DNA of 64,000 nucleotides from Humibacillus xanthopallidus (GTDB lineage: Bacteria; Actinomycetota; Actinomycetes; Actinomycetales; Dermatophilaceae), in NCBI RefSeq assembly GCF_006717145.1, contig NZ_VFQF01000003.1:682001-746000 (forward strand), given 5' to 3'. The notes below the pieces were generated by a model, which was not told where the DNA came from, made no database searches, and was given only the letters and a program-made list of their open reading frames with translations. The first letter of the stretch is position 1, and each line of letters starts with the position of its first letter. The position numbers and the translations under genes were made by a program. Below, piece by piece: positions 14,255 through 37,931 of the stretch.

Positions 14255-14312
14255 CTCCACTGGCCGGAAAGTCTGGTCGAGTCGGTGCCGCGACGCACAA
14301 GGACCCCCAACC

Positions 14313-15573: not shown

Positions 15574-15575
15574 GG

Positions 15576-17407: not shown

Positions 17408-17442
17408 GCTCGACCCTCCTTCGGGTGTCGGGAGTGGTGGCG

Positions 17443-17478
17443 CCGTGGCGGGGCGGGCTTGCGTCAGCCCCGCCACGG
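17443..17478 (-). terminator. intra-operon hairpin after the binding-protein gene
   Basis: CCGTGGCGGGGC (17443-17454) pairs with GCCCCGCCACGG (17467-17478). It is located just past the solute-binding-protein stop with no T-run, consistent with a partial terminator or 3'-end stabiliser. Confidence 0.6.
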
Positions 17479-17485
17479 CAGCCGG

Positions 17486-18823: not shown

Positions 18824-18848
18824 TGAATCCTCCTAGTTGTGAACTGTT

Positions 18849-18862
18849 TTAAGACGTGTGAA
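18849..18862. promoter_or_regulatory. candidate LacI-family operator before the ABC operon
   Basis: TTAAGACGTGTGAA is an imperfect palindrome centred on CG, 26-39 bases upstream of the binding-protein ATG. A closely related string (GATGTGTGAAGTGACT) lies at 20091 in front of lacI. This is weak, pattern-based evidence. The 18836-19031 interval holds no gene. Confidence 0.35.
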
Positions 18863-19031
18863 GCGGACTGGCTCGCCCTCGTGGGCGTGCGCAGAGTGGT
18901 GTTCCCCGGGTCCGGACGTGCGGGATCGCGCACGGTGCCGGACCGTGGGTTGGGTGCTTGGCTCGCCGCGTCGGGTGTGCGGCGAGAGCGAAGCGTTCAG
19001 TTGTGCCGTTGTGGTCGTCGTGACCTGACGG

Positions 19032-20066
19032 TCAGGGTTCGAGCAGCTCGTCACCTGGGGAGCTGCATCCGCAGGACCTGCGGATGACCAGCTCGGTGGG
19101 GACGAGGGTGTGGGCCGGCTCGGTGCCGGACAGGACGTTGTCGAGCGCGACCTGGGCCATCGCCCGCAGGGGCTGGCGAACCACGGTGAGCGGCGGCCAG
19201 GTATGGGCTGCCTCGCTGATGCCGTCGAAGCTGACGACGGCGATGTCCTCGGGGACCCGGAGGGAGCGGCTGTGGATCGCGTGCAGGACGCCCAGGGCCT
19301 GCAGGTCGGAGGTGACGAAGACCGCGGAGGCGGGGGAGGGCTGGTCGAGCAGCCTCTGGGCGGCCTCGTAGCCGCCGTCGGCGGTGAAGGTGGTGCGCAC
19401 CACCGGCCCCGGTTCGAGACCCCGCATCCGGTGGGCATCGCGCCAGCCCGACTCGCGTTCCTCCGGCTCGGAGGCGCCCGTGTCGCCGGCAATGAGGGCG
19501 ACCTGGGCGTGGTGGTGATCGTCCAGGAGGTGCCCCACCACCCGCCGGCTGCCGTCCACGGCGTCCGGGCCGATGGTGTGGAAACCGGGCACCGCGAAGG
19601 GGCAGTTGACGAAGAGGAGCGGGATGCCCGGGTCGCGCAGCCGGGCGACGTCGTGGCGGTTCATGCTGGTCATCGAGATGATGCCGTCGACGTTGCGTCC
19701 GGCGAGGGCCTCGATGAGACCTCGCTCGGTCTTGGCCGACCCCGCCGAGGTCGCGGTGAGCAGCGCGATGCCGGCCCGCGTGGCCGTCTCGTAGATCACG
19801 TCGTTGTACTCGCCGAAGAAGGGGTTGGCCGTGCCTGGATGCACGACGCCCAGGATCCCGGTGGAGCCCGTGCTCAGGGCTCGGGCTGTCGTGTTGGGCC
19901 GATATCCGAGGAAGGCGATCGCCTCCCGCACGCGGTCCGCGGTCTCCGGTGCGACAGGGCGCGGGCCGTTGTTGACGACGTAGCTGACGACCGCCGAGCT
20001 CACTCCGGCGTGCCGTCCGACGTCGGCCAGGGTGACGTTGCGTCCCCGGCTTGGCGTCCGTGCCAT
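19032..20066 (-). CDS. LacI-family transcriptional regulator
   Basis: A 344-aa repressor-type regulator. The N-terminal helix-turn-helix VTLADVGRHAGVSSAVVSYV (about residues 11-30) is followed by the hinge helix NTTARALSTGSTG. A periplasmic-binding-protein-like effector domain (about 65-335) follows, with ILGVVHPGTANPFF and AVVSFDGISEA. The C-terminus has an unusual RRSCGCS cysteine pair. ATG 20066 has AAGGAG 8 bases upstream. It lies between the sugar importer operon (same strand, downstream) and a divergent GH36 gene, so it probably controls both in response to an alpha-galactoside. Confidence 0.94.
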   Translation of the reverse strand: MARTPSRGRNVTLADVGRHAGVSSAVVSYVVNNGPRPVAPETADRVREAIAFLGYRPNTTARALSTGSTGILGVVHPGTANPFFGEYNDVIYETATRAGIALLTATSAGSAKTERGLIEALAGRNVDGIISMTSMNRHDVARLRDPGIPLLFVNCPFAVPGFHTIGPDAVDGSRRVVGHLLDDHHHAQVALIAGDTGASEPEERESGWRDAHRMRGLEPGPVVRTTFTADGGYEAAQRLLDQPSPASAVFVTSDLQALGVLHAIHSRSLRVPEDIAVVSFDGISEAAHTWPPLTVVRQPLRAMAQVALDNVLSGTEPAHTLVPTELVIRRSCGCSSPGDELLEP

Positions 20067-20105
20067 TCGACCACTCCTTGCATCGTCGATGATGTGTGAA
20101 GTGAC

Positions 20106-20119
20106 TCTAAGCCCTTAGA
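20106..20119. promoter_or_regulatory. candidate operator 1 in the lacI-GH36 intergenic region
   Basis: The half-sites TCTAAG and CTTAGA are arranged as an inverted repeat with a 2-base spacer. It is AT-rich against the local GC background. Confidence 0.45.
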
Positions 20120-20171
20120 TGATGTCGTGTCTAGAGGTTGACATCGTGCTCACTGAACGGTCACCCTCAAT

Positions 20172-20187
20172 ATCTACACGCTTAGAT
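20172..20187. promoter_or_regulatory. candidate operator 2 upstream of the GH36 gene
   Basis: ATCTACACGCTTAGAT is a palindrome centred on CG, the usual LacI/GalR arrangement, and shares the TTAGA half-site with operator 1. It ends 13 bases before the GH36 ATG, well placed to block transcription. Confidence 0.5.
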
Positions 20188-20200
20188 CAAAGCAGAGAGT

Positions 20201-22012
20201 ATGCCGTCTCGTCCCGGCGTCTCCCCGAGCCGCCGCGCTCCTCGATCCTCTCGAACAGAAAGCCTCACGCCTGTGTCCCCAGAGCTGTGCGACGTCCTTG
20301 CCCTGTCCGTCCTGACGCTGCGGGAGGGGACGCGGCTGTCCAGCTCGACCAGCCACGACGCTCGCGTCGTCGAGCTGCGCCTCGCGTCCGATGACGGACT
20401 CCCGGGGCTGCATGTCGAGGTAGACCTCGGTGATGCCGTCGGCTACTGGCACCCGGGTCATCGCACCAACCGACTCCTGCCACCGGACTGGTTGCCGGCA
20501 TCGGTGACGAGCCTCGTGGAGTCGGCGCCGGTCGGCGCGCTCTACAACGCTGCCGGCCAGACCCTGCTCGGATGGGCGGCTGACGAGGCTGTCGCCGAGC
20601 TTCGGGTCGACTACGGCGTGTCCGAAGAGCGCAAGACGTTCGTCGTGGACATCAGGCCGGTGGCGCCCCTCGAGGGAGATCTGGTCGTCGTCGTCGACCG
20701 GAGGCGAGAGCCCGTCTCCGACTCCATCCCGTGGCTGGCGCGGTGGATGTCCAACCGGTGCATCGGACCGTCCTTGAGCCCTCCGCAGATTGCTCGGGAG
20801 CCGGTGTACTCGACGTGGTACACGTTCGCGCAGGACATCGACGCCGGGCTCGTCACCAGCGAGGCCGTTCTCGCGACAGAGCTCGGCTGCCGGTCGATCT
20901 TCATCGACGACGGCTGGCAGAGGTTCGCACAGGGGCGTGGCTATCAGGGCTGCGGCGACTGGCTGCCGGACGGCTCGAAGTTCCCCGACCTGGCGGGCAC
21001 GGTCAAGACCATCCACGGCACCGGCGCCTCGGTCGCCCTCTGGGTGTCGCCCCTGCTCCTTGGGCAGCGGAGCACGATCTTTCCGCACCTCTACCCCTAC
21101 GCGCCCCACTGGGAGGACGATCTCAGCTGTCACGTCCTTGACCCCCGGTACCCGCAGGTCCGTGATCACGTTGCCGACCTCTGCCTCCGCCTCGTGCGTG
21201 ACTACAACGTCGACATCCTCAAGATCGACTTCCTGGACCAGGCCATGGCCTACCGGGACAGCCCCTGCGGCGGCGACATCGGCGGCGTCGGCGAAGCGAT
21301 GTCGGCGATGCTCCGACACGTCCGCACCCGCCTTGCGGACGCCGGCCGGCCCGAGGTCGCCTTCGAGTTCCGGCAGCCGTACGTCAGCCCAGCCATTGCC
21401 CGCTTCGGGGAGATCCTGCGAGCCAACGACTGCCCGGGGGACAGCATCATCAACCGGACGGCGAGCATCGACGCGCGACTGCTTGCCGTCGGACAGGTCG
21501 TTCATGCCGACCCGATGATGTGGGGCCCCGCGGCCGGTGCCGGTGCAGTGGCCCAACAGCTCTACGCAGGGTGGTTCGCCGTCCCGCAGATCTCGATGCG
21601 CCTCTCGGAGCTCTCGGGAACCCAGGCTCACGCCTTGCGCGCCCTTCTCTCGTTGTGGCGCGACCACAGCGAGGTGACGCTGCGCGGCGAGATTCGGGTG
21701 TCGGGCCCGGAGCGCGGCTACGACCTCGTCACGGCGGTGCGGCGAGATCTGCACCGGAGCGTGATGCTCGCCTACGCCCCCGTGACGATCGATCTCGACG
21801 TGGCGTGCACGAGCGAGGTCACCGTCGTCAACGCCACCCCGTTCCACGGCCTCGTCCTGCGCACCACGAGAGTGCTGGCCGGGGGTGTCGTCTCGTCGGT
21901 GCTCGGCGAGACGGTCACTGCCCTACCGCCGACCTCCTCGTCGCTGCTCGAGGTGGCTGTCCCCCCGTTCGGCACCGCGACCTTGCTCCTGAGCGAACCT
22001 CACGGCAGCTGA
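20201..22012 (+). CDS. glycoside hydrolase family 36 alpha-galactosidase-like enzyme
   Basis: A cytoplasmic enzyme of 603 aa expected to cleave terminal alpha-galactosyl residues from imported oligosaccharides such as melibiose or raffinose. A beta-sandwich N-terminal region precedes the catalytic barrel. Key blocks are YSTWYTFAQDID, IDDGWQR, LKIDFLDQ with the likely nucleophile Asp343, and RANDCPGD with the likely acid/base Asp410. There is no signal peptide. A start at GTG 20273 is possible; neither start has a strong ribosome site, and ATG 20201 is kept because it lies just after the operator. Divergent from lacI. The family and mechanism are firm; exact substrate is inferred from context. 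Confidence 0.88.
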   Translation: MPSRPGVSPSRRAPRSSRTESLTPVSPELCDVLALSVLTLREGTRLSSSTSHDARVVELRLASDDGLPGLHVEVDLGDAVGYWHPGHRTNRLLPPDWLPASVTSLVESAPVGALYNAAGQTLLGWAADEAVAELRVDYGVSEERKTFVVDIRPVAPLEGDLVVVVDRRREPVSDSIPWLARWMSNRCIGPSLSPPQIAREPVYSTWYTFAQDIDAGLVTSEAVLATELGCRSIFIDDGWQRFAQGRGYQGCGDWLPDGSKFPDLAGTVKTIHGTGASVALWVSPLLLGQRSTIFPHLYPYAPHWEDDLSCHVLDPRYPQVRDHVADLCLRLVRDYNVDILKIDFLDQAMAYRDSPCGGDIGGVGEAMSAMLRHVRTRLADAGRPEVAFEFRQPYVSPAIARFGEILRANDCPGDSIINRTASIDARLLAVGQVVHADPMMWGPAAGAGAVAQQLYAGWFAVPQISMRLSELSGTQAHALRALLSLWRDHSEVTLRGEIRVSGPERGYDLVTAVRRDLHRSVMLAYAPVTIDLDVACTSEVTVVNATPFHGLVLRTTRVLAGGVVSSVLGETVTALPPTSSSLLEVAVPPFGTATLLLSEPHGS

Positions 22013-25854: not shown

Positions 25855-26733
25855 ATGACGCCACTGCAGCTGAACAACCACGTCGAGATGCCCGCCATCG
25901 GGCTCGGGGTCTTCCAGACACCGCCCGACGAGACCCGCGACGCCGTCGAGGCGGCCCTGGCGACCGGGTACCGCCACATCGACACGGCCGCCGCATACGG
26001 CAACGAGCGGGAGGTCGGCGACGCCGTCCGCAGCTCCGGCGTCGCCCGTGACGACGTCTTCCTCGAGACGAAGATCTGGATCAGCGACTACGGCTACGAC
26101 CAGACTCTGCACGGCTTCGACAAGAGCGCCGCCAAGCTCGGTGTCGAGCAGATCGACCTCCTCATCCTGCACCAGGCCCTTCCCTCCGACTTCGACAGCA
26201 CCCTCGAGGCCTACCGAGCCCTCGAATCGCTGCTCGAGGCCGGCAAGGTCCGCGCCATCGGTGTCAGCAACTTCATGGTGGACCACCTGACCGCCCTGCT
26301 GGAGACCGCGAAGGTTGTGCCTGCTGTCAACCAGATCGAGGTCCACCCGTACTTCCAGCAGAAGCGGGTCCAGGAGTTCGGCGCGGCGCACGGGATCCTC
26401 ACCCAGGCGTGGTCGCCGATCGGTGGGATCACCTTCTACCGCGACGGGCGCCATGCCAGCACCCTGCAGGACCCCGTCATCGGCGGCATCGCCGCCACGC
26501 ACGGTAGGAGCCCGGCGCAGGTGATGCTGCGCTGGCACCTGCAGCGCGGCCGCTCCGTCATCCCCAAGTCGACCAAGGCACACCGCATCGCCGAGAACTT
26601 CGACGTCTTCGACTTCGACCTGAGCGATGCCGAGCTGACCGCCATCGACGCTCTGGACACCGGCCAGCGAGGCGGCCCCGAGCCAGCCGACATCACGCTC
26701 GAAGCCTTCGGGCGCCCCATCCCCGAGGCCTGA
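25855..26733 (+). CDS. aldo/keto reductase (DkgA-like)
   Basis: A NADPH-dependent carbonyl reductase of 292 aa with a (beta/alpha)8 fold. The catalytic tetrad is visible: Asp and Tyr in GYRHIDTAAAYGNEREVG, Lys in LETKIWI, His in LLILHQALP. The cofactor-binding tail VIPKSTKAHRIAENFDVFDF is intact. The closest pattern is the 2,5-diketogluconate reductase/methylglyoxal reductase subgroup. TACGGT seven bases before ATG 25855 suggests a leaderless mRNA; no strong ribosome site is present. Divergent from the MFS gene with 137 bases between. Confidence 0.93.
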   Translation: MTPLQLNNHVEMPAIGLGVFQTPPDETRDAVEAALATGYRHIDTAAAYGNEREVGDAVRSSGVARDDVFLETKIWISDYGYDQTLHGFDKSAAKLGVEQIDLLILHQALPSDFDSTLEAYRALESLLEAGKVRAIGVSNFMVDHLTALLETAKVVPAVNQIEVHPYFQQKRVQEFGAAHGILTQAWSPIGGITFYRDGRHASTLQDPVIGGIAATHGRSPAQVMLRWHLQRGRSVIPKSTKAHRIAENFDVFDFDLSDAELTAIDALDTGQRGGPEPADITLEAFGRPIPEA

Positions 26734-26774
26734 CCGGTGGAACGCCAGTCAGGACTCTGCTGACTGGCCACCCG

Positions 26775-27308
26775 CTAGTTCTCAGGGCGGAACGGCGTCG
26801 TCGCCACGGTGACTCTGCCTCCTGAGCTGCTCATGATCGTCACGGTCAGGGGATCCGTCGGCTCATATGCGAAGACGGTGCCGCCGTAGCGTTGGCCGCC
26901 GCCGTTCTGGACCTCCCCGATGAGGGTGCCGTCCTGCCGGTAGGCGAGCAGGCGCGCCTGGCGGTCAGAGCTGTCTGCGCTGATCAGGAGCTGGCCCCCG
27001 CTGCTCGCGGTCGCGTTGGTCCAGCACTTGTCGACCCTGATGTGGTCGACGCCGCCGCGGCGCCCGGCATCGGCCCGGGCAGGGGAAACGGCAGTGGGCG
27101 CCGCAGTCGCTCCGGCATCGGGCACGGCCGTGATCCGCGCCCGGCCCGGTGTCACCGACATCGACGTGGTCGCGGCGGCGACCTGCGAGACGAGCGCACT
27201 CGACGCCTGCTGTGGTTGGGCACGATCGCCCCCGCAGGCACACAGAAGCCCGCCGGCGAGGGCGGCGGTGGCCGCGCAGAGCAGTCGCTGCAGTCGGTGA
27301 CCCGACAT
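26775..27308 (-). CDS. putative lipoprotein, function unknown
   Basis: A 177-aa protein with a lipoprotein-type signal (LLCAATAALAGGLLCACGG; lipidation cysteine about residue 25). A low-complexity Ala/Thr linker precedes a C-terminal domain of about 100 residues. This domain opens VDHIRVDKCWTNATASSGGQ and contains RQARLLAYRQDGTLIGEVQNG and DPLTVTIMSSSGGR, suggesting a small beta-rich domain. I do not recognise a family. It is on the same strand as, and 106 bases downstream of, the 888-aa Ig-domain protein, so it may share its transcript. Confidence 0.7.
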   Translation of the reverse strand: MSGHRLQRLLCAATAALAGGLLCACGGDRAQPQQASSALVSQVAAATTSMSVTPGRARITAVPDAGATAAPTAVSPARADAGRRGGVDHIRVDKCWTNATASSGGQLLISADSSDRQARLLAYRQDGTLIGEVQNGGGQRYGGTVFAYEPTDPLTVTIMSSSGGRVTVATTPFRPEN

Positions 27309-27414
27309 CGGAGACCTCCCGACTCGCTTGCCGCGGTGTCACGGTGTCACGGGATGCCGTGGCGGCTGTCGAGGCCGGGGGGAACGGCCTCGACAGCCAC
27401 CGGGGGGCGAAGTC

Positions 27415-30081
27415 CTACTGCCGGATCTTGTCGAGCCTCGACGGTGGGCTCGTGCCGATCACGGTTCCGGAGGCGTTGACCGCCTTCACCGTCAGGGGCG
27501 TCTGCGCACACGGGGTGGCATACGTTCCACCGAGGTTGCAGGCCGGCGGGGGTGCGCCGACTGCGGTGACGGTGAAGGAGCCCGGTGCGACCAGCGAGAC
27601 CGTGAGGTTCGCTGCACCGAGAGTGGCCGGGTCGAACATCGTGCCCTTCTCCGTGAGGTACGGCAGGAGCACCATCGAGCTGACCGTCGTGTCAGTCGAG
27701 GTCGCCGTCACGATCAGCCGTTGCTTCGACGTCCGGTACTCGACGGGGGTCAGGGTGATGTTGGTCGGCACCGCCGCCGTGACGGTGACCGTGAGGGTCG
27801 TGTCAGGCGAGGTTCCGTTGGCGTTCGTCGCCTTGACGGTGAAGCTGTAGGTGCCCGCCACGGTGGGCGTGAACTTCAGCTGGGACGTCCCGCTGGCGGT
27901 GGCCGCAGCAGGTGTCTGCGAGAGGGCCGGGTTCGCCGGGCCGGCCGTCTGGGTCCAGGCCCAGGTCGGCGCCGGCAGCGAGCTGCTGGAAGCCGTCACC
28001 GTCACCAGGTTGCCGGCCGTGACGGTCTGGTTCTGGATCGGGTCGATAGTCGGCGGGGGTGCCGGCTGGACGGTGATCGTGGTGGAGTCGGACGCCACCC
28101 CGCACGCGTTCGAGACGGTGAAGGTCAGGTGGTAGGTGCCTGCCGCGAGCCCTGTCGCCTTGAACGTCGGCGTGGTCGTGCTGGCGCCGGTGAGGGCGCT
28201 GCCCAGGTCCGTGCCTCCGACCGTGGTCCCCGCAGTCCACTGGAGCGTGAGCGGTGTCGACGCCCCTGCCGTCACGCTGCCGGACAGCGGGATGCTGGCG
28301 CCGTTCGCGACCGAGTAGGGCGCACCGTTGATCGTCGGCGTCGCGCAGACGACGGCGGGAGCCGCCACGCTGCTGGGCCACGGGTCGAGAACGCCGACCT
28401 TGACGCCCGTGAGCGAGGTGTAGCCGCCGTAGGCGAGGAACGGGATCGAGTTGAAGTTGTCCTCCGGGACCGCAGTGCCGGGGACGTTCTCCGGGAAGAT
28501 GTACTCGCCGATCGGGGCGTGGTACTGCCCGTAGTAGATGCCGTTGGCTGCCGTCTTGGCACCGGGCGTGCCAGGGACCTGGCTCGCGGGGTTCTCGTTG
28601 ATCGTGCCGGGAAGGAACTCCGACAGCCCGTCGACGACGGCCCGGACCTCACGCGTGGGCGGGATGAACTGGCCGGCAGGAGGCGGGGTGCAGGCCTTCT
28701 GCGTCGGGACTGTCGCGGTGCACGGCGGCCGGAAGCGCCAGCGGCCTCGCACTGCGCCACCAGGGGGGCCGGGGTCGGGCATGATCGTGCCCCACTCGCG
28801 GTCGCTCGTGGCGCCGGTGACCGGGTTGATGTCCACGCCGTAGAGGCGGATCATCCGCGACTCGTCCGTGGACATGCCCTCGAACCTCGTGCGCACCGCG
28901 GCCTCGCCGGCGCCGAAGATCGTGAGGCCTCCGGTGCCGATCAGCGACACGTCGACCGACACGTATGCCGGGTCGACCCCGGGCTGCGTGTAGATGCCCA
29001 GGCTGGCCACGATCGTGTGGGCCGAGATGTACTGCCCACCGTTGGCTCCACCGTCCTGGATGAGGTTGCCGGCGAAGTTGACGTAGTCACCGATCTCGAA
29101 CGGGGCCTGCTTGCGTGGGTCGGCGCAGGTGCCGCGTGCGCACGTGTTCGCGTCCACGTCGGCCGGGGAGTCCATGCGGAACATCGTGTACGCCGCACCC
29201 AGCACCGGCAGGGCCGGCTGCGGGGTGATGCCCGACGTGTCCGTGCCGTCGTAGACCGGCCGGTTGGACTGCGGGCACTCGGGGTCGTCGTTGGTCGAGG
29301 TCGGAGCGGTGCGCGGGATGCACATCGGGAAGCCGGTCTCGGCGAGGATGGTCGGGTTGTCCTGGTCGACCTGGAAGCGGTCGTCAGGTGACATGGCTCG
29401 CCCGAAGCGGCCGGAAGTCGTCGACCCGGAGATCGCGGGGTCGTTGATCCGCACCCGCGTGCCGGTGCCGGAGGCGCCCGGTGTGCCACCGACCTCCATC
29501 TCCCCGGTGCTGTAGTCGATGTAGTTGACGTAGCCGGCGCCGGAGTTGAGGTCCTGCTGGGCGATGTGGATCAGCCCGGCGATGTAGCGGTCGCTGCCCG
29601 CCTTGACGACGCGGTTGCCGACGACGTGGACCTCGTAGGTCGTGAGCGGCTTGGGGCTGTCACCGAGCGCCATTCCGGTCTGGGTCGGCCCGTAGGGCGC
29701 GGGTGCGTGGGTGAAGAGCTCCTGCCAGGTGAGTGCGCTGGCCGGGAGGATGACGACCGTCTCCTTGGGGACGACGACTGTGTGGCCGTCGAGGGTCAAG
29801 GTGCCGCCGGAGTGTGGGTCGCCCGCGGTGTCGAGCGTCGCCGTCTGGAGGAAGCCGGTGATGTCGAACTGGGTGCTCGAGGCCACCACCGGGTTGACCA
29901 CCGGCGCGATCGACGGGGCAACCGCCCCGTTCGCGGCACCGACTGCCACCGGCGCCAGCCCCCCGGCCAGTGCGATCGCGGCCAAGGCCGAGAAGAGACG
30001 GCGCCGCTGTCGCGCGCCACCTCCCACTCGCAGGCCGCTGGTGGAGCGCGCGATGCGCGCAGCTCCGGGTTGACTAGACAT
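27415..30081 (-). CDS. secreted 888-aa protein with Ig-like C-terminal repeats, unknown function
   Basis: An exported protein with an arginine-rich signal (RQRRRLFSALAAIALAGG, cleavage near residue 50). The N-terminal about 500 residues have no domain I recognise. They contain repeated beta-rich segments (FDITGFLQTATLD, GGTLTLDGHTVVVPKETVV, YVNYIDYSTGEMEVGG) and cysteines at MCIPRTAPTS, NTCARGTCADP and FRPPCTATV. Three Ig/PKD-like domains follow (about 565-655, 655-740, 745-850), with typical GTYHLTFTVSNACG and AGTYSFTVKATNANGTSPD. ATG 30081 has GGAGGACG upstream. It is near a two-component system and a Tat-exported multicopper oxidase, suggesting an extracellular matrix or redox role; this is inference. 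Confidence 0.8.
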   Translation of the reverse strand: MSSQPGAARIARSTSGLRVGGGARQRRRLFSALAAIALAGGLAPVAVGAANGAVAPSIAPVVNPVVASSTQFDITGFLQTATLDTAGDPHSGGTLTLDGHTVVVPKETVVILPASALTWQELFTHAPAPYGPTQTGMALGDSPKPLTTYEVHVVGNRVVKAGSDRYIAGLIHIAQQDLNSGAGYVNYIDYSTGEMEVGGTPGASGTGTRVRINDPAISGSTTSGRFGRAMSPDDRFQVDQDNPTILAETGFPMCIPRTAPTSTNDDPECPQSNRPVYDGTDTSGITPQPALPVLGAAYTMFRMDSPADVDANTCARGTCADPRKQAPFEIGDYVNFAGNLIQDGGANGGQYISAHTIVASLGIYTQPGVDPAYVSVDVSLIGTGGLTIFGAGEAAVRTRFEGMSTDESRMIRLYGVDINPVTGATSDREWGTIMPDPGPPGGAVRGRWRFRPPCTATVPTQKACTPPPAGQFIPPTREVRAVVDGLSEFLPGTINENPASQVPGTPGAKTAANGIYYGQYHAPIGEYIFPENVPGTAVPEDNFNSIPFLAYGGYTSLTGVKVGVLDPWPSSVAAPAVVCATPTINGAPYSVANGASIPLSGSVTAGASTPLTLQWTAGTTVGGTDLGSALTGASTTTPTFKATGLAAGTYHLTFTVSNACGVASDSTTITVQPAPPPTIDPIQNQTVTAGNLVTVTASSSSLPAPTWAWTQTAGPANPALSQTPAAATASGTSQLKFTPTVAGTYSFTVKATNANGTSPDTTLTVTVTAAVPTNITLTPVEYRTSKQRLIVTATSTDTTVSSMVLLPYLTEKGTMFDPATLGAANLTVSLVAPGSFTVTAVGAPPPACNLGGTYATPCAQTPLTVKAVNASGTVIGTSPPSRLDKIRQ

Positions 30082-30524
30082 TGTCGTCCTCCGTCCGTTT
30101 CCTGCCGTGTTGACGCGCGTTGACGTGCGTTGATGTGCGCTGGACGGGCCTGTACGAGCGACTGCCCCCGTCGCGGCACGACGTGCGGCGTGATCGCCGC
30201 AAGATCCCCCCTCAAGGATGTGAACTCCATGGTGGCTTCGGCGGCAGCGGCGAGCATGCGCCACGGTGGGGGGCTCCACTCCCCGAGAATTGGGGGACGC
30301 GGCCCACCTGAACCCGGCGGCATCCGCCCAGTTTTGGGGGAGCGCTCACCCCGATCGTGGCGGGCTCTTGTCACACCGGGCACTGCAATGATCAAGTGGC
30401 GGTGGAGAATCCGCGTTCGCGCTGCACGGTCCGCGCGCCGACACGGCATCCGCGACGTCCTCGAGACCAGGACTTCGCACCAGGGCCGCGAAGGCGGCCT
30501 CGCCCTGAGACAGGTGGTGAATGC
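30082..30524. promoter_or_regulatory. divergent regulatory region of the Ig-protein and receiver genes
   Basis: A gene-free interval of about 440 bases. It contains CCGAGAATTGGGGG (30283-30296) and a weaker CCCAGTTTTGGGGG (30327-30340). The same motif recurs inverted at 36752-36765 in front of the SARP gene. A frame open across part of it has no family resemblance. Confidence 0.45.
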
Positions 30525-30911
30525 GTGGTGCGGGTACTCATCGTCGACGACGTGCTCATCCTGAGGATCGGGCTCGCGTCGCTCCTCAGTCTGGAGCCGG
30601 ATCTCGAGATCTGCGGTTCGGCGGGCAGCGGTGAGCAGGGCATCGAGGTCGCGAGGGAGACGTGCCCCGACGTGGTCCTCATGGACATCCGGATGCCCGG
30701 CATGGACGGGGTCGAGGCGACGCGCCAGATCCGGCACGACCTTCCGGCGACCCAGGTCGTCGTCCTGACGGGCGAGCCCTCCCTCCAGGGAAGGCAGGCT
30801 GCCCTCGAGGCGGGGGCGGCGGCATACGTCGTCAAGGACGCCGCCCCGGCGACGGTGCTCGAGGCGGTGCGCAGCGCCTGGAGCGCTCGCCCGCCGGGGT
30901 ATGCCGTCTGA
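30525..30911 (+). CDS. stand-alone receiver-domain response regulator
   Basis: A 128-aa CheY-like receiver. Acidic pocket VDD (8-9), phospho-acceptor Asp54 in VLMDIRMPGMDG, Thr in VLTGEPS and Lys about 104 in YVVKDA are all present. NarL relatives continue into a LuxR-type helix-turn-helix, but this protein stops right after the receiver. Its last residues (SARPPGYAV) and stop codon are encoded by the first copy of a 37-bp repeat. It could be a phosphate sink or a truncated regulator. Start is GTG 30525 or 30528. Convergent with the histidine kinase gene. Confidence 0.8.
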   Translation: MVRVLIVDDVLILRIGLASLLSLEPDLEICGSAGSGEQGIEVARETCPDVVLMDIRMPGMDGVEATRQIRHDLPATQVVVLTGEPSLQGRQAALEAGAAAYVVKDAAPATVLEAVRSAWSARPPGYAV

Positions 30912-30956
30912 CCGGGTCAGCGCTCGTCCGCCGGGGTATGCCGTCCGGCCCGGTCG
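30883..30956 (+). repeat. two tandem 37-bp repeats carrying GTATGCCG
   Basis: Copies at 30883-30919 and 30920-30956 differ at a few positions. Both contain CCGCCGGGGTATGCCGTC, the extended form of the dispersed octamer also seen at 5732 and 10820. Copy 1 supplies the receiver gene's last codons and stop. Confidence 0.85.
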
Positions 30957-30975
30957 GCGGTCGGGCGCAGTGGGC

Positions 30976-32316
30976 TCAGGGTTGCCAGTCGCTCGAGAAG
31001 CTCAGCGGGAACCGGGCCACGAGCCGGGTGCCGCCCCCGTCACGGTCCTCCAGTGACAGCTCTCCTCCGATGTCGGCGAGGGTGTCCTCGAGGAGGCGCA
31101 GCCCGAGGTGTCCCTCGGCTGCCGGCTCTGCAGTGGGGCCTACCCCGTCGTCGGTGACGGTGACCACGGCCTTCTCGTCCTCGACTGCAGCGACAAGGTC
31201 GGCACGCGATGCGTGGGCATGCTTGACGACGTTGCGAAGTCCTTCTCGCAGAATGCGATAGCTCAGCTGGATCACCTCCTTCGACACACCGTCGAACTCG
31301 GCTGCCACGTCGACTCCGACCGTGACGCCTGACGCGTGGGCGCGCGTCGACAGCACGCCCAGCGCCGCGATCAGGCCCTTGCGTGAGGGGTCGGCGGGAT
31401 AGAGGTCGGTCACCAGCCCGCGGAGCGAGGCGATGTCCTTCGCGAGAGCCGGCCGCACGACCTCCACGACCTCGCGGGCCTCATGGGCCTCCGGCGGAAG
31501 CTCGTCGAGGATGACGGGGAGCGCGTAGCCGAGGGCGCTGAGGTCCTGGATCAGGCCGTCGTGGAGGTCCTCCGCCATGCGGCGACGCTCCAGGTCGGAC
31601 GCCGCCAGCGCGTGCCGCAGCATCGCACTGCGCTCGGCCTGCGCGCGTTCGACCCGGCGAGCGAGGGAGAGGGCGAGCGGCAGGACGAAGAGAGTGAGGA
31701 TCAGCATCGAACCCACGGCGAGGGCCGTGAGCCGACCCAGGATGAGGCTCTGGTCGCTGTCGAGACGGTCGGTCGACCAGTAGGACTCGATGACGACGGG
31801 TTGCTGGTCGGCGTCGACGGCGCCGGCGTAGACCTCGAGGAGCCGGCCCGCCCCCCGTTCCTCGATGTTCTCCACCTTGCTCAGGTCGGAGAGGTCGGCG
31901 ACGACGTTCGACGTGCCGAAGAGCGCCACGATCTCGTCGTCCATCGTGAAGGTCCTGCCGATGAGGTCCTGCTCGTCCGACCAGATGACCTTGCCGTCAC
32001 TGGACCAGAGCTTCACGTGCACGATGGAGCCGTCGCGAAGCCGTGACTCGACGACCGTGACCAGGCCGGTGGAGGCCGTGGCGTCGCCGGTCCGAACTGC
32101 CTTGTTGACGAAGGGCGCCGCGACGTTTCGGGCGAACGTCCCTCCGCGCAGGCTCGCCTCGTGCAAGGCGATGTCGGCAGAGAGCGCGCGAGCCACGAGG
32201 ACGACGGCCACGGCGACGAGGACGAACGCGACGAGACTCCACAGCGCGAACCGCGTGAGCGCCTGACGGGCAATGGGTTTCGACCCATGCCCTCGCCGGA
32301 GCCGGAGCCTAGTCAC
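30976..32316 (-). CDS. sensor histidine kinase (NarX/HisKA_3 type)
   Basis: A 446-aa membrane kinase. The first membrane span (about 20-43) is followed by an extracytoplasmic sensor region (about 45-190) and a second span (about 195-220). A HisKA_3 dimerisation domain with His252 in RRMAEDLHDGLIQDL comes next, then a HATPase domain (LREGLRNVVKHAHASRAD N-box, VTDDGVG, GHLGLRLL). The GTG start overlaps the stop of the preceding NarL-type regulator by 8 bases (GTGACTAG), so the pair is translationally coupled. Signal unknown; position next to a multicopper oxidase suggests a redox or metal cue. Confidence 0.93.
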   Translation of the reverse strand: MTRLRLRRGHGSKPIARQALTRFALWSLVAFVLVAVAVVLVARALSADIALHEASLRGGTFARNVAAPFVNKAVRTGDATASTGLVTVVESRLRDGSIVHVKLWSSDGKVIWSDEQDLIGRTFTMDDEIVALFGTSNVVADLSDLSKVENIEERGAGRLLEVYAGAVDADQQPVVIESYWSTDRLDSDQSLILGRLTALAVGSMLILTLFVLPLALSLARRVERAQAERSAMLRHALAASDLERRRMAEDLHDGLIQDLSALGYALPVILDELPPEAHEAREVVEVVRPALAKDIASLRGLVTDLYPADPSRKGLIAALGVLSTRAHASGVTVGVDVAAEFDGVSKEVIQLSYRILREGLRNVVKHAHASRADLVAAVEDEKAVVTVTDDGVGPTAEPAAEGHLGLRLLEDTLADIGGELSLEDRDGGGTRLVARFPLSFSSDWQP

Positions 32317-32983
32317 GAGGCGTGGTTGACACGAGCCCGATCCGGCTCGCCGTCACCACTGCCTCGAGCTGCGAGTGCGCGTGGAGCTTGCGCAGCAGGC
32401 TCTTGACGTAGCCACGACAGGTCGAGAGCGAGATGCCCAGGTCTCTTGCGATCATGACGGCATCGGCCCCGTCGGAGAGCCGGCGCAGGACGTCCTCCTC
32501 GCGGGGCGTGAGCCGGGGGACGGGCGGTCCTCGCCGCGGTTCGCCGGATCGCACGAGGTTGCGCATGAGTACGGGGTTGACCGCGAAGCCCGTCCGCGTC
32601 GACGAGCGAACGGCCGCGAGGATCTCGTCGAGCGAGCCGTCCTTGGGCAGCAGCGCGCACGCGCCCGCGTTGACCGCCCGGGTGAGCAGCGTCTGGTCGA
32701 TGAAGGCGCTGAGCACGATGATGCGCACGTCGGGTGCAGCGCGTGCCAGGTCGGCGGCCACCTCGATCCCGTCGTCGTCACCCAGCCGGACGTCCATGAG
32801 GACGACGTCCGGCTTCCAGTGCGCGGCCATGGCACGGGCTTGCGCCCCGTTGACGGCAGTGGCGACGCAGTGCATGTCCGACTCGCGGTTGATCGCGAGC
32901 CCGATGGCGTCTGCGAGCACCCCGTGGTCGTCGACGATCAGCACCGATGTCTGCTCGCTGTCGAGACATGGTGAAGTCTCCAT
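32309..32983 (-). CDS. NarL/LuxR-family response regulator
   Basis: A 224-aa DNA-binding partner of the adjacent kinase. The receiver (about 13-130) has Asp64 in VVLMDVRLGDDDG and Lys in LLPKDG. The LuxR helix-turn-helix (about 155-215) reads LTPREEDVLRRLSDGADAVM, then IARDLGISLSTCRGYVKSLL. ATG 32983 has GGGAGG 5 bases upstream; the longer frame is unsupported. It is the first gene of a two-gene operon with the kinase, transcribed away from the multicopper oxidase. Likely targets are the flanking secreted-protein genes, but no binding site is proven. Confidence 0.94.
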   Translation of the reverse strand: METSPCLDSEQTSVLIVDDHGVLADAIGLAINRESDMHCVATAVNGAQARAMAAHWKPDVVLMDVRLGDDDGIEVAADLARAAPDVRIIVLSAFIDQTLLTRAVNAGACALLPKDGSLDEILAAVRSSTRTGFAVNPVLMRNLVRSGEPRRGPPVPRLTPREEDVLRRLSDGADAVMIARDLGISLSTCRGYVKSLLRKLHAHSQLEAVVTASRIGLVSTTPRD

Positions 32984-33161
32984 AGGCACCTCCCCCCCGG
33001 GAGCATCTGATCCGCTCAGTATCAGGCAGGAGATGGGGGCTGTCTCGCGAATTGCGTTCTGACGACTGGTTGTCCGCATTTGCCCACTGCGGAGAGGCGC
33101 GCGGCCTCGCACCCCGAGGTTCTCCCGAGGCCGGCTCCTCACCATGTCGACCAATGGAAGA

Positions 33162-33180
33162 CGTCCGCGATCCGCGGACG
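33162..33180. promoter_or_regulatory. inverted repeat upstream of the multicopper oxidase
   Basis: CGTCCGCG-ATC-CGCGGACG has arms of 8 bp, 83-101 bases before the oxidase ATG, in the region shared with the divergent response-regulator operon. It is a candidate regulator site. The rest of 32984-33262 shows no gene. Confidence 0.45.
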
Positions 33181-33262
33181 GTTCAGCCAGAGCCGGTCGC
33201 ACATGGACGGTCGAGCACCTCCTGCGGCGCACGGCTCGGTGTGAGTCATACGAGGAGATGTC

Positions 33263-35485
33263 ATGAACGCATTCACACCCTCGGAGGAGCAGGAGCTGCC
33301 CCTGTCGGGGAGCGCAGGGGTCCACCGACGGACCGTTCTGCGGCTCGGGGCAGCCGGCGGCCTCGGCGCCGCCCTGGTCGCTGCGCGTGGCCTGGGGGCA
33401 CCCTTCCTGGCCGACCGGGGGCTGCTCTCACCCGACGGTGCCTTCGCCCAGTCCTCGACGACGCTCGGGGACCTGCTCTTCTACGTCGAGGCGTTCCCCA
33501 CCAGCCCCCTCATCCTCTCGCCGTTCACCGACGCGCTTCCCGTCCCGCAGGCGCTCTCGCCGATCGCGGCCTCGACCTTCAGTGCCTGGGCCCAGCCGCC
33601 GGGACCCGGAGTCGGCCAGCAGAACTCGTTCGGCAACGAGCGGCACCAGATCTGGCCCAGCAAGATCGGCTACCCCGACCCTCTGGTCTACAAGATCGAC
33701 CTGCGCGTGAGCACGCACTCCTTCACGACGTCGCAGGTGCTGCCCATCGACGCCAACGGCAAGCCGACGACCTCTTACGACGCCTTCGGCGCCACCTACG
33801 CCGCCGGCACGAAGCGCTGGCTGCCGATGAGCACCATCTACGGCTTCAACGGGACCTTCCCCGGGCCGCGCATCAACGCCGAGTACGGCAAGCCGGTGCT
33901 CGTGCGCTTCGAGAACCATCTCGACGAGAACCCCCTGAACCTCGACCGCCAGGACTTCGGGGCGCCGGACTGGTCCTTCCTCACGCACCTGCACAACGGG
34001 CACACGGCCCCCGAGAGCGACGGCAACCCGCACTACTGCATGACCTACGGGCCGAAGTGGAGCGGCTACGGGCCGAAGACGTTCTGCGACAACCTCTACC
34101 TCAACTGGCCGGCCGGCGGGGACGACCGCGAGAAGCAGTCCTTCTTCTGGTTCCACGACCACCGGATGGACCACACCGGGTCCAACGTCTACAAGGGCAT
34201 GGTCGGTCTCTACCCGATCTACGACCCGAAGAACGGGATGGACATGGGCGACGAGAACCGGGGCCTCCGGCTTCCCGGTGTCCGCCGGGACAACCCCGAC
34301 GGCTCGTTCGACGTCGACTACGACGTGCCCCTCGCGTTCTACGACTGCCGTCTCGACGACGGCGTCACGACGCACCAGGACGTGCATGACGGCATGGGGG
34401 AGTTCCCGGCCGCGAAGAACCCTGCGACGCATCCCGAGTGGTGGGGCAAGACGTTCTACAAGCACTTCCCGAACCACGGCTTCGTCGGTGACATCTTCAC
34501 CGTCAACGGCACGGCCTACCCCGTCATGCAGGTGCGGCGTCGCAAGTACCGCTTCCGCTTCCTCGACGCCTCCATCGCCCGCATCTACGAGTTCAAGCTG
34601 ATGGCCTCGACGCAGGGCCCGAAGTCCTCGGCGTCGCTGGGCTACGGCGGCGACGAGCTCGAGGGGCAGTACCGCATCCCCGACGGCCAGCAGTGCATGA
34701 AGTTCACCCAGATCGCCTCGGACGGGGGGCTGCTGCCCTTCGCGCTGACGCGCGACTCGTTCGAGCTGTGGCCGGCCAAGCGGCGTGAGGTCATCATTGA
34801 CTTCACGCGCTACCAGGACGGGACGCCGACGACGAAGGGCGACGTCATCTACCTGACGAACGTCATGAAGATGCCGGACGGGCGCATGTGGGCGAGCTCC
34901 TCGCGCTTCTCGCCGGACCCGAAGTACAAGGTGCCCGTGCTGAAGTTCGTCATCGGCGACGACGCTCCGGACAACAGCCTCATGCCACAGCCCGGTCAGC
35001 TGCTCCGCGAGCTGCCGCCCCTGCCGGGCAACTGGCAGAGCATGCTCGAGAACCGCCTCATCTTCGAGGTCGAGCGGGGCAGCGCGTCAGCGGATGTCGA
35101 GTGGCTCGTCAACGGGCAGCCCTTCGACCCGACCCATGTCGGAACGAGCCTGAAAAACCCTGCAGGTAAGGCACTTCCGGCCTCGCAGAAGGTCAACAGC
35201 TTCAACCTCTGGGAGATTCGCAACGGCGGCGGGGGATGGGTGCACCCGTTCCACCTCCACATGGAGGAGCACCGGGTCGTCATGCGCAACGGCAAGGACG
35301 CCACGAAGGGCAGCGCAGGTCACCCGGACGACGTGTCGCGAGAGGACCTCACGGCGCTCGACCCGAGCGAGTCAGTCATCGTCTACCGCGGATTCCGTGA
35401 CTTCGTCGGCCCCTACGTGGCCCACTGCCACAACCTGGCCCACGAGGACCACGCCATGATGTTCGGCTGGGAGATCACGTCGTAG
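33263..35485 (+). CDS. Tat-exported multicopper oxidase
   Basis: A 740-aa extracellular oxidase coupling substrate oxidation to reduction of O2 to water. The Tat signal VHRRTVLRLGAAGGLGAAL (about 21-39) leads into cupredoxin domains. Copper ligands are visible: HLHNGH at 242-247 and FHDHRMDH at 297-304 for the trinuclear site; HPFHLHMEEH and HCHNLAHEDHAMM near the C-terminus, with Cys722 the likely type-1 ligand and Met the axial residue. It is longer than CotA-type laccases (about 510 aa) because of extra N-terminal and inter-domain loops. Start ATG 33263 follows GAGGAG. Substrate could be phenols, bilirubin, Mn(II) or Cu(I); sequence does not decide. Confidence 0.92.
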   Translation: MNAFTPSEEQELPLSGSAGVHRRTVLRLGAAGGLGAALVAARGLGAPFLADRGLLSPDGAFAQSSTTLGDLLFYVEAFPTSPLILSPFTDALPVPQALSPIAASTFSAWAQPPGPGVGQQNSFGNERHQIWPSKIGYPDPLVYKIDLRVSTHSFTTSQVLPIDANGKPTTSYDAFGATYAAGTKRWLPMSTIYGFNGTFPGPRINAEYGKPVLVRFENHLDENPLNLDRQDFGAPDWSFLTHLHNGHTAPESDGNPHYCMTYGPKWSGYGPKTFCDNLYLNWPAGGDDREKQSFFWFHDHRMDHTGSNVYKGMVGLYPIYDPKNGMDMGDENRGLRLPGVRRDNPDGSFDVDYDVPLAFYDCRLDDGVTTHQDVHDGMGEFPAAKNPATHPEWWGKTFYKHFPNHGFVGDIFTVNGTAYPVMQVRRRKYRFRFLDASIARIYEFKLMASTQGPKSSASLGYGGDELEGQYRIPDGQQCMKFTQIASDGGLLPFALTRDSFELWPAKRREVIIDFTRYQDGTPTTKGDVIYLTNVMKMPDGRMWASSSRFSPDPKYKVPVLKFVIGDDAPDNSLMPQPGQLLRELPPLPGNWQSMLENRLIFEVERGSASADVEWLVNGQPFDPTHVGTSLKNPAGKALPASQKVNSFNLWEIRNGGGGWVHPFHLHMEEHRVVMRNGKDATKGSAGHPDDVSREDLTALDPSESVIVYRGFRDFVGPYVAHCHNLAHEDHAMMFGWEITS

Positions 35486-35566
35486 CAGCCGTATGCCGTG
35501 TCGTGGCCGCCGGACCAAGGGCGCCACCGCACGGCCTCGGCAGCCGATGGCAAGGAGCGCAGTGTC

Positions 35567-36709
35567 ATGACCACACCCCCGACAACCTCCACCTCCTCGA
35601 CAGCTTCCCACCCCGCTGACGCGAGGCCGGTCCGTCGCGCAGCCGTGCCGTGGGCAACCGTGCTGCCGCTCGCGGTCGCGCTCGCCTACGCGGACGGCTT
35701 CTGGGTCACCTCGCTTCGCGGTGCGGTCGGTGCCGTAGGCCGCGGCCAGGGCCCGTTCGCCACCTGGTGGCGCGAGTCGAGCGTCCTGATCCCCGTCTAC
35801 GTCTGCGCGGTGATCGGCGCGCTCGCACTGGCGCTGGAGTGGTCGAGGCTCCGGGGCCGGTCTCGGCCGAGCCTGGCCGTCGTCGGACTCCTCGTCGTCG
35901 TGGCCGGGACCCTCGTCGGGGTCGCCGCCATCGCGGCGGGCGCAGCCTCCGACTACCACGTGCAGTCCGAGCAGGTGCAGATGATGGCGTCGATGCGCGG
36001 GGACTGCCGCGCGGACTGCATCGAGCGGTTGCGGCATGACACGTTGTGGCTCCAGGTGCGGGCCACAGGTCTGGGCGCGGCACTCCTGCTTGTCACCAAC
36101 CTCGGGGTCCTCTCGTGGGTGACGATGTTCCGGGGAGGCCGTCTCGACGCGGTGCGCTGGGGGCGCCCGCCGCGCGCGGCTGCGGATGGACACGTCGAGC
36201 TCCGAAGGCTCCTCGCGCTGGCTCTGGTCGGCAGCGCACTCATCCACGTCCTGGTCGTGCCGGAGCACGTCGACGAGTGGCTGGCAGCGGGGCTGTTCTT
36301 CATCGCCCTGGCGGCTGCGCAGCTGGCGGCTGCGGGCCTCGTGATGCGAAGGCCCGGCCGCGTCGTCCTGCTTCTTGTGATCGCCGGCTCTCTCGCGACG
36401 CTCCTGCTCTGGGTCTGGACCAGGCTCTGGGGGCTGCCGATCGGACCCGGTGCAGGCGTGCCCGAGCCGGTCGGCGTGCCCGATGTCTGCGCCGGCGTCC
36501 TTGAGCTTGTGGGGCTGGGCCTTGCCATGGTCCTCCTGCGTGCAGCACCGGCCGTGCGGACCCGTGACCGCGGGCCGGAGCACCTGAGCCGCCTCGCGGT
36601 GGTCGCGGTGCTGGCCGTGCTGGTGATGGGGGTGGCGGCCACCCAGCCGGGCTGGTTCGACGTCGTCCAGACGTCGAGCATGGCCGACTCCGGCACGACC
36701 GGCGGCTAG
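35567..36709 (+). CDS. polytopic membrane protein, unknown function
   Basis: A 380-aa protein with about eight predicted membrane spans and a Ser/Thr-rich N-terminus. Notable features are a His/Glu loop SALIHVLVVPEHVDEWLAAG between spans and an extracytoplasmic loop with two cysteines (MRGDCRADCIERLRHDT). The PEH..EW signature is reminiscent of small membrane proteins that accompany copper and cytochrome genes in actinobacteria. ATG 35567 has AAGGAG about 9 bases upstream and lies 81 bases after the multicopper oxidase, so the two are probably co-transcribed. It may be a metal-handling or electron-transfer partner; this is inference. Confidence 0.75.
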   Translation: MTTPPTTSTSSTASHPADARPVRRAAVPWATVLPLAVALAYADGFWVTSLRGAVGAVGRGQGPFATWWRESSVLIPVYVCAVIGALALALEWSRLRGRSRPSLAVVGLLVVVAGTLVGVAAIAAGAASDYHVQSEQVQMMASMRGDCRADCIERLRHDTLWLQVRATGLGAALLLVTNLGVLSWVTMFRGGRLDAVRWGRPPRAAADGHVELRRLLALALVGSALIHVLVVPEHVDEWLAAGLFFIALAAAQLAAAGLVMRRPGRVVLLLVIAGSLATLLLWVWTRLWGLPIGPGAGVPEPVGVPDVCAGVLELVGLGLAMVLLRAAPAVRTRDRGPEHLSRLAVVAVLAVLVMGVAATQPGWFDVVQTSSMADSGTTGG

Positions 36710-36751
36710 CAGACGACTCGCGGTTTGTTCGCGAAGTGACGCGGCCGCCGA

Positions 36752-36765
36752 CCCCCAATCTTCGG
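36752..36765 (-). promoter_or_regulatory. shared 14-bp motif before the SARP gene
   Basis: Minus-strand CCGAAGATTGGGGG matches CCGAGAATTGGGGG at 30283 at 12 of 14 positions. Confidence 0.4.
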
Positions 36766-36842
36766 GTCCCGCGTCCCCGCAGGTGGTGGTCGAGTCATCC
36801 CGTCCCTCACGCGCACCATGGTGGGGTCACGGGAGGGTTGAC

Positions 36843-37931
36843 ATGACGAAGTCAATGCAAGAGGAGTGGGCGAGGGCATCCGGCGGGGGCGCCGGAACCT
36901 CGCAGGTGGAGGTGCCCACGCACTTCGGGGCACAGCATGCTGCGCGCCCGCGCGCGCAGGCTGACGTGCGCCCACGCGCACAGGTGACGCTCTGCCGGAG
37001 CCTGTCGGTGTCGGTCGGCGGCACGACCGTGGGTCCCCGACAGCTGGGCGGGGCGAAGCCGCGGCAGATCCTCGTCGCGCTGCTGCTCCACCCCGAGCAG
37101 GCCGTGTGCAAGGCGAGTCTCGTGCGGCTGCTGTGGGGAGGTTCACCGCCGGCCGGGGCTCTCAGCACGCTCGAGGGGTACGTCAGCCTGCTGCGGAAGC
37201 GGCTCGAGGGCCTGGCGCCGGGCCTGGAGAACGCGGTTCGCACGGTGCCCGGCGGATACCTGGCCGACCTGGCGTTCCTGGACGTCGACGTGCACCGCTT
37301 CCGCAGGCTGGGCCTCACGGCCCGCTCCGCCGTGGCCGAGGAGGCCGTGCTCGCCTATGCGGGAGCCATCGACGCGCTGACCGGCGCGCTGCTGCCCGAG
37401 GAGGACGTCGACTGGATCGAGCAGGCACGCGAGGAGCTGGACGGCGAGCTGCTGCAGGTCCTCACCGATGCAGCCGCTGTCGCCCTGGAGGTCGGAGACC
37501 TCGGTCGGGCCCACCGCTGGGCCCGAGCAGCGATCTCCATGGACCCCTACGACGAGCCGGCCTGGCGCGTGGTCCTCGAGTGCTGCGAGCGCCGCGGCCT
37601 CTACGCCGACGGCCTGCGCGCCTACGACGAGTGCCGACGCCTGCTCGCAGGCGAGCTCGGATGCACCCCCGGGCCCGGTGTCCGTGAGGCCTTCGGCCGG
37701 CTCCTCGAGCGCGCGAAGCAGGTCGACGACGACCCCCTGGCGGCACTCATGGACGCCGTGGTCCGGCTGCACCTCGCGGTCTCCTCGCCTGCCGAGCCCA
37801 CGACGGAGCCGACCGGCCCCGGGGTCGACCGGGCTGACGCCGGAGATGTCGAGGAGGACTGGCGGCTGCTGGAGCGCTTCCTCTCGATGGCCAGAAGGCA
37901 CACCGAGCACCCGTCGCGCCTGTCGGCGTGA
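36843..37931 (+). CDS. AfsR/SARP-type (BTAD) transcriptional regulator
   Basis: A 362-aa regulator. A winged-helix trans_reg_C domain (about 65-140: PRQLGGAKPRQILVALLLHP, LRKRLEG, RTVPGGYLADL) is followed by a bacterial transcriptional-activation domain of TPR-like helices (about 145-300: FRRLGLTARSAVAEEAVLAY, DEPAWRVVLECCERRGLYAD). A C-terminal tail of unknown role includes EEDWRLLERFLSMARRHTEH. The N-terminal 60 residues are low-complexity. ATG 36843 has GGGAGGG upstream. Monocistronic, after the oxidase/membrane pair. SARPs usually activate neighbouring genes; the shared motif at 30283 and 36752 is a candidate site. Confidence 0.88.
   Translation: MTKSMQEEWARASGGGAGTSQVEVPTHFGAQHAARPRAQADVRPRAQVTLCRSLSVSVGGTTVGPRQLGGAKPRQILVALLLHPEQAVCKASLVRLLWGGSPPAGALSTLEGYVSLLRKRLEGLAPGLENAVRTVPGGYLADLAFLDVDVHRFRRLGLTARSAVAEEAVLAYAGAIDALTGALLPEEDVDWIEQAREELDGELLQVLTDAAAVALEVGDLGRAHRWARAAISMDPYDEPAWRVVLECCERRGLYADGLRAYDECRRLLAGELGCTPGPGVREAFGRLLERAKQVDDDPLAALMDAVVRLHLAVSSPAEPTTEPTGPGVDRADAGDVEEDWRLLERFLSMARRHTEHPSRLSA

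Follow-up and report, generated by a model that had tools for sequence, protein, structure and literature searches.

A block of eight genes in Humibacillus xanthopallidus is best seen as modular, with a core formed by a multicopper oxidase (MCO) and a polytopic membrane protein (MEM), optional additions in the form of a large exported protein (E888) with a lipoprotein (lipoP) and, in relatives, of a peroxidase, and local regulators. The block occupies positions 26775-37931 of the stretch analysed, 64,000 nt of GCF_006717145.1 (NZ_VFQF01000003.1, 682,001-746,000, forward strand; hereafter the window), and also includes a receiver-only regulator (RR1), a histidine kinase (HK), a response regulator (RR2) and a SARP-family activator (SARP). 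MCO, MEM and E888 very probably belong to one system. An initial annotation had taken all eight genes, each of which was confirmed here at its given position, for one regulated system that oxidises something outside the cell. Co-distribution of the members, their adjacency in several phyla, shared domains and a shared operator uphold the idea of a system, but the block is modular and not a fixed unit. These findings and the pairing of MEM with MCO point to a co-inherited, co-regulated system with optional layers; that such a system serves extracellular metal oxidation is given close to an even chance.

The window genome (G000) is 5.39 Mb in three contigs and holds a single E888 match. A composition filter picked E888, HK, MCO, MEM and SARP as genes; lipoP, RR1 and RR2 were left unpicked and are supported by domain matches or conserved homologues. 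Loci and genomes of relatives are designated L and G, respectively, with taxa as in the record titles, and gene calls in the loci are longest open reading frames (ORFs) and may be wrong. A search of titles and the starts of abstracts, with subscription papers outside its reach, found nothing on this gene block.

Distribution of the block members

In a survey of 99 genomes of the family, MCO (counted at E≤1e-60) was found in six genomes from four genera, and the N-terminal region of E888 in seven. Five of the E888 matches are strong (73-100% identity), that in G055 is partial (39%) and that in G050 marginal (E 6.5e-4). The six MCO genomes are the first six E888 genomes, with the marginal match in G050 as the only extra, and the Fisher p for co-occurrence is 6e-9, rising to 8e-8 when the partial and the marginal match are dropped, uncorrected for relatedness. 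MEM is present in 10/99 genomes, comprising all six with MCO and four in which only the C-terminal half is matched, and lipoP in four of the six MCO genomes, with one marginal match outside them (G075, E 8e-4). A control, a 1019-aa glucose/sorbosone dehydrogenase (GSDH) protein with LGFP repeats encoded in the window, was detected at E≤1e-60 in G000, G044 and G039 (3/99). G039 belongs to the same genus and has no MCO, MEM, E888 or lipoP; the control protein is distributed otherwise than the block members. Among 296 genomes of the class, E888 was found in two and MCO in three, and both E888 genomes fall within the MCO set. Conservation in other genomes had been proposed as a check on the initial annotation, with independent distribution of the members as the outcome that would speak against it, and neither survey shows such independence.

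When the whole genome collection was scanned for MCO, 107 relatives came up, and the best 80 of them, representing 79 distinct loci, were kept. Fifty MCO-bearing genomes were drawn from 65 loci, omitting L048, L051, L053-L056, L058, L062, L066, L071, L073-L075, L077 and L079, and the remaining 14 of the 79 loci are apparently further records of listed genomes. E888 was found in 14 of these 50 genomes, a share that may be high because the 15 omitted loci are mostly distant MCOs. The loci and the family genomes are not independent, as G095 corresponds to L009/L013, G021 to L046, G100 to L006/L025 and G055 to L074. E888 rarely occurs outside genomes that carry MCO, yet it is not found in most of these. 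The four genomes of Terrabacter, Terracoccus and Intrasporangium with MCO all have E888 as well, a set found via MCO that does not give a frequency in Terrabacter.

E888 lies near MCO in Actinobacteria (the window, L046, L004, L013/L128, L123 and L124), Chloroflexi (L032 and L038) and Methylomirabilota (L061), with E888 identities of 70% in L032 (Anaerolineae), 34% in L061 and 30% over 393 aa in L038. The stretches fetched for Root85 (L150), Terracoccus (L151), Anaeromyxobacter (L152) and L155 (the L063 genome) contain no match to the MCO profile, which other MCO types could escape, and gene calls did not resolve E888 in Kineosporia (L153).

The regulators and E888 might instead merely adjoin an MCO by chance. 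The members are modular, the majority of the 79 MCO loci have none of these regulators nearby, and G039, besides having none of the four proteins named above, is rearranged at this region, since an aldo/keto reductase gene adjoins the GSDH gene there (L175, G039:C3) and the two are ~11.6 kb apart in the window (25871-26735 and 11135-14271). As synteny with G039 is broken here, no clean empty insertion site can be demonstrated in that genome. The shared distribution, the repeated adjacency in several phyla, the shared operator and the different distribution of the control gene make a chance neighbourhood very improbable.

The oxidase and its membrane partner

The MCO gene (33263-35485, + strand) predicts a 740-aa protein of the twin-arginine translocation (Tat) type, with the arginine pair at residues 22-23. 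The four copper motifs (H242/H244, H298/H300, H661/H664/H666 and H721-C722-H723...H727...M732), which include the type 1 (T1) Cys-His-Met set, and the likeness to solved members place it among the three-domain MCOs, and both Cu-oxidase_2 and Cu-oxidase_3 score over the Pfam cut-off. Strict patterns recover all four motifs in 39 of 79 family sequences, and HDH and HCH in 77/79 each; these 79 sequences differ from the 79 loci, as they include the window, L123, L124, L128 and one duplicate. The nearest solved proteins are CotA (2.8e-34) and bilirubin oxidase (2e-32), and bilirubin oxidase ranks first for the last 271 residues, where the GW-HP-H-H and HCHNL-HEDH-MM segments align.

MCO shares copper motifs and domain order with CotA and fungal bilirubin oxidase, but carries 144 extra residues before the first solid block aligned with CotA (MCO 183 = CotA 39), and differs from both in having a dedicated membrane partner and a conserved E668-E669-H670. 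These three residues lie directly behind the HPFHLH motif, are conserved in at least 95% of the 79 family sequences and are a possible metal site. A Met-rich segment is absent from MCO, which has 20 Met among its 740 residues. Two named functions were considered and rejected on the NCBIfam equivalog models, CueO at 104.3 bits (cut-off 525) and the o-aminophenol oxidase PhsA at 86.4 bits (cut-off 950). The best 80 of the 107 relatives, at 47-92% identity, come from Terrabacter, Arthrobacter and other Actinobacteria, from Anaerolineae and other Chloroflexi, and from Terriglobia, Methylomirabilota, Nitrosospira, Brocadia and others. Arthrobacter ipis has four copies of the MCO family (L006, L025, L030 and L042), with a MEM match adjacent to the L006 copy alone.

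MEM (35567-36709, + strand) has two helical halves, at residues 29-188 and 208-325. The best MEM match lies on the same strand as MCO, from 1 bp before to 201 bp after the matched end of MCO, in 45/79 loci, and in none of the 79 does a locus with a MEM match have its best one elsewhere. Seven Chloroflexi loci carry a membrane protein of ~190 aa in place of MEM, the N-terminal 60 residues of which resemble those of MEM (hhalign 76.5%, E 2.2e-5, in one comparison). The H..PEH..EW loop and cysteine pair singled out in the initial annotation are present in the window protein, as IHVLVVPEHVDEW and CRADC, but neither is universal among homologues; of 34 aligned sequences, about 21 possess the C-terminal half in which the His/PEH segment lies, and 23 have two Cys close together. 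MEM and lipoP have no match in Pfam or NCBIfam. The predicted structure of MEM (predicted local distance difference test, pLDDT, 83.5; predicted template modelling score, pTM, 0.64) has no Foldseek match at E≤0.001. VIA-align Z values reach 10.8, but scores of this size are also quoted for helical bundles that are unrelated, and nothing was drawn from the list, which holds metal-binding four-helix bundles plus many unrelated bundles.

E888 and lipoP

E888 (27415-30081, - strand) is predicted to be an exported protein of 888 aa. Its family tracks the oxidase across phyla, and its N-terminal region has no description in Pfam or NCBIfam. Since its Pfam matches are limited to PKD/Ig-like domains, with the best stretches at 584-767, residues 1-583 are unrecognised, which bears out the region of 500 residues first reported. 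This part carries the signature SPDxRFxxDxxNxT....TGxPxC at 231-254. The fold prediction suggested for E888 was run on the N-terminal region with AlphaFold2 and an 8-row alignment, giving a strand-rich model with pLDDT 40 and pTM 0.32, of insufficient quality for a fold search. The C-terminal domain (about 775-888) has counterparts joined to Chloroflexi MCOs; a profile built from E888 proteins alone matches the C-terminus of five such MCOs (E 4e-12 to 2e-9), in which a module belonging to this family forms part of the oxidase.

The lipoP gene (26775-27308, - strand) predicts a 177-aa lipoprotein with a lipobox-like start, recognised by eye. A relationship between its last ~75 aa and the C-terminal domain of E888 is possible, as the lipoP-only profile and the E888/MCO C-terminal profile both match L055_15, and the lipoP profile also matches L055_16, these two L055 proteins forming the link. 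The direct profile comparison is weak (probability 12.7%, E 0.0023, one comparison), and an earlier one, with a profile mixed with unrelated Arthrobacter lipoproteins, gave under 1%. A 13-bp perfect inverted repeat, found by eye between the E888 stop and the lipoP start (27364-27398, no strand), is a possible attenuator or terminator. Scans for sigma-70 promoters and terminators gave no excess over shuffles.

Several arrangements in relatives involve E888-like or other large secreted proteins. In Arthrobacter L122, L154 and L156, a shorter relative of E888 is located beside a differently sequenced lipoprotein and an MCO of another type (417-461 aa), L154 also having a 579-aa MCO of another type, as if the E888 scaffold had been re-used by several oxidases. 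In Terrabacter aerolatus (L004:1416-3326, - strand), a glycine-rich protein of 636 aa, paralogous to the N-terminal region of E888, is encoded close to E888 itself. Large secreted proteins of another family (cluster 16: L024_1, L041_6, L063_3, L068_2 and L077_3) occur near MCO in 7/79 loci by profile.

Regulators and putative operator

RR1 (30525-30911, + strand, 128 aa) matches Response_reg alone. HK (30976-32316, - strand) is a HisKA_3/HATPase_c kinase and RR2 (32309-32983, - strand) a NarL/LuxR-type response regulator with Response_reg and GerE domains, and their genes overlap by 8 bases. SARP (36843-37931, + strand) has both domains of the SARP activators over cut-off (BTAD 68.3 bits, Trans_reg_C 29.7 bits). 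HK (at least 45% identity), RR2 and SARP occur together near MCO in 7/79 loci (L002, L003, L004, L009, L013, L046 and L060, with L009 and L013 on one contig), in differing orders and only in Terrabacter, Terracoccus, Lapillicoccus, Intrasporangium and Phycicoccus. Six of the seven have a separate lone receiver, the match in L009 being the receiver of RR2. A different kinase-regulator pair is found directly 5′ of MCO in Chloroflexi L024 and L032 (the L024 kinase was checked with Pfam). Small receiver-like proteins are also encoded near Chloroflexi MCO genes (L037_5, L038_2 and L068_3), and their phospho-Asp position reads Asn by eye, unaligned.

Reading of the intergenic regions revealed a CCCC...GGGG repeat 5′ of E888, RR1 and SARP. 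The site before E888, CCCCAATTCTCGGGG on the minus strand (30281-30295), was located by pattern and alignment and is kept in 5/5 aligned promoters, with one base changed in L151. The site before SARP, CCCCAATCTTCGGG (36753-36766, + strand), is invariant in 5/5 aligned promoters, and a related site precedes RR1 (30327-30339, + strand). Similar sites are present in L046, L004, L002, L003, L150 and L151. The pattern CCCCARTNYTBGGG (14 bases), loosened to fit the sites found, is matched exactly 13 times across five whole related genomes, and 11 of these matches precede E888, RR1 or SARP (G000 2/2, G421 2/2, G390 2/2, G391 3/4, G389 2/3). The other two, in G391 and G389, are inside long open frames and were set aside as chance matches. 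In G389 and G390, E888 is on a different contig from SARP and each gene has its own site.

A further element lies 5′ of MCO, where CCCCGAGGTTCTCCCGAG (33112-33129, + strand) contains a CCCGAG direct repeat with an 11-bp pitch that is found in 5/5 aligned MCO promoters, with two changes in L004. SARPs bind such direct repeats, and from its sequence this one resembles a SARP box.

Candidate substrates

Mn(II) is the favoured substrate, though tentatively so. Mn oxidases usually belong to one of two classes, the MCOs and the animal haem peroxidases (PMC11930936, PMC6247904), fungal bilirubin oxidases have been identified as Mn(II) oxidases or named as candidates, with direct proof described by the authors as lacking for their two species (PMC7902709), and the isolate Terrabacter MOB-326 oxidises Mn(II) (PMC6396730). 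The choice of Mn(II) follows from this background, from the closeness of the last MCO domain to bilirubin oxidase and from MopA-like peroxidases near MCO in relatives. MopA is an RTX animal-haem peroxidase (PMC6247904), and proteins of this type (An_peroxidase plus HemolysinCabind, 1740-1757 aa) are encoded within ~10 kb of MCO and E888 in L013, L123 and L124; L024 has one of 1264 aa that runs into the end of the locus and lies 6 kb from MCO. Peroxidase-profile matches occur in 5/79 MCO loci, one of them weak (L050), and di-haem CCP/MauG-type proteins in 8/79. The peroxidase is optional; PF03098 is present in 13/99 family genomes, including G000, where the protein is without RTX repeats, and is missing from G021.

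The Mn oxidation system of Pseudomonas putida GB-1 (MnxG, McoA and MopA, under MnxS1/S2-MnxR; PMC11930936) likewise places an MCO under two-component control and, as in some relatives of the window, combines it with a MopA-like peroxidase. SARP, the lone receiver, E888 and MEM are peculiar to the present block, which is likened to the GB-1 system by description and not by Mnx sequence.

In the proposed mechanism, the conserved gene pair would supply a Tat-type, CotA/bilirubin-oxidase-like MCO and MEM, which may anchor the oxidase, deliver copper or pass electrons. E888 and lipoP, linked to the pair by distribution and operator, would make up a beta-rich scaffold that is secreted and retains the oxidase or its product at the surface. 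HK, RR2, RR1 and SARP would make up a regulatory cascade, with RR1 as a putative phosphate sink or modulator, acting through one operator before E888, RR1 and SARP and the SARP-box-like repeat before MCO. Outside the cell, O2 would serve as the oxidant that converts Mn(II) to Mn(III/IV). The most far-reaching formulation, a new horizontally mobile extracellular Mn(II)-oxidation system of Actinobacteria and Chloroflexi composed of MCO, MEM, an E888 scaffold, an optional RTX haem peroxidase, a two-component/SARP cascade and a genome-rare operator, is possible but doubtful. The accessible text of PMC6396730 reports the Terrabacter Mn(II) oxidiser without an assigned gene; the present work names a small set of candidate genes with an operator, and Terrabacter and Arthrobacter are culturable hosts of the set.

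A number of observations weigh against this proposal. The only animal-haem peroxidase of the window genome is on another contig and, being without RTX repeats, is not an RTX peroxidase; G021 has no PF03098 protein; MopA of P. putida GB-1 is itself reported to show no activity (PMC11930936); and MOB-326 was placed by 16S (PMC6396730). No E888 match was found in 36 of the 50 MCO genomes, some of them metagenome-assembled and possibly incomplete, including a Phycicoccus with the same regulators. The operator pattern is no commoner than its reversed control (13 versus 15 matches in the five genomes) and, as it was also built from some of the sites, only the position and conservation of the matches are informative. 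There are, moreover, copper-type neighbours: SCO1-like proteins in 5/79 MCO loci, CusB-like adaptors in another count of 5/79 (L053, L054, L061, L067 and L070, by clustering, with L061 checked by Pfam) and P-type ATPases within the E888 loci L122, L156 and L150.

Copper is argued for by these neighbours, and a protective Cu(I) oxidase at the surface, with a copper-handling role for MEM in the membrane, would account for them. The CueO model is, however, far under its cut-off, MCO is without the Met-rich segment, and no P-type ATPase with DKTGT is present among called ORFs >500 aa in the window or in MCO loci L002-L080. Copper homeostasis also leaves E888 and the RTX peroxidases unexplained, and is considered unlikely. 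Among the P-type ATPases, that of L156 has a His-rich start by eye, and that of Terrabacter Root85 (L150:17464-19899, - strand) is fused to a hemerythrin domain and lies ~6 kb from the detached E888 of this genome.

A secreted laccase system acting on phenolics or humics in soil, in which the PKD/Ig-like domains carried by E888 would bind a polymeric substrate, is in keeping with CotA and bilirubin oxidases as the nearest solved relatives of MCO, and CotA acts on bulky molecules such as 2,2′-azinobis(3-ethylbenzothiazoline-6-sulfonate) (ABTS) and bilirubin (PMC9168544). A Pfam scan of 20 window proteins, however, showed none for aromatic catabolism, the SCO1-like and CusB-like neighbours point to metals, and in Nitrosospira and Brocadia (L069 and L070) members of the MCO family stand beside di-haem peroxidases, so that this explanation is judged rather unlikely as well. 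Phenolics and Cu are kept as possible substrates beside Mn(II).

An Fe(II) oxidase of the LPR1 type was considered since LPR1-like MCOs are CotA relatives, known from soil bacteria and including Actinobacteria and Chloroflexi (PMC9168544). Each of the three LPR1 acidic-triad motifs was found in 0/79 family sequences with strict patterns, which leave room for another iron site, and an LPR1-type ferroxidase is disfavoured on these motifs as quite improbable.

Flanking genes

The genes flanking the block are not conserved at MCO loci. The MFS transporter and FolE were found in 0/79 each, and the aldo/keto reductase gave only 26% matches in 2/79. Elsewhere in the window, the control protein (11195-14254, + strand, 1019 aa) combines a GSDH domain with a PKD domain and six LGFP repeats, and 14374-22012 contains genes for an ABC importer, a LacI regulator and a melibiase-like protein that scores just under the Pfam cut-off.

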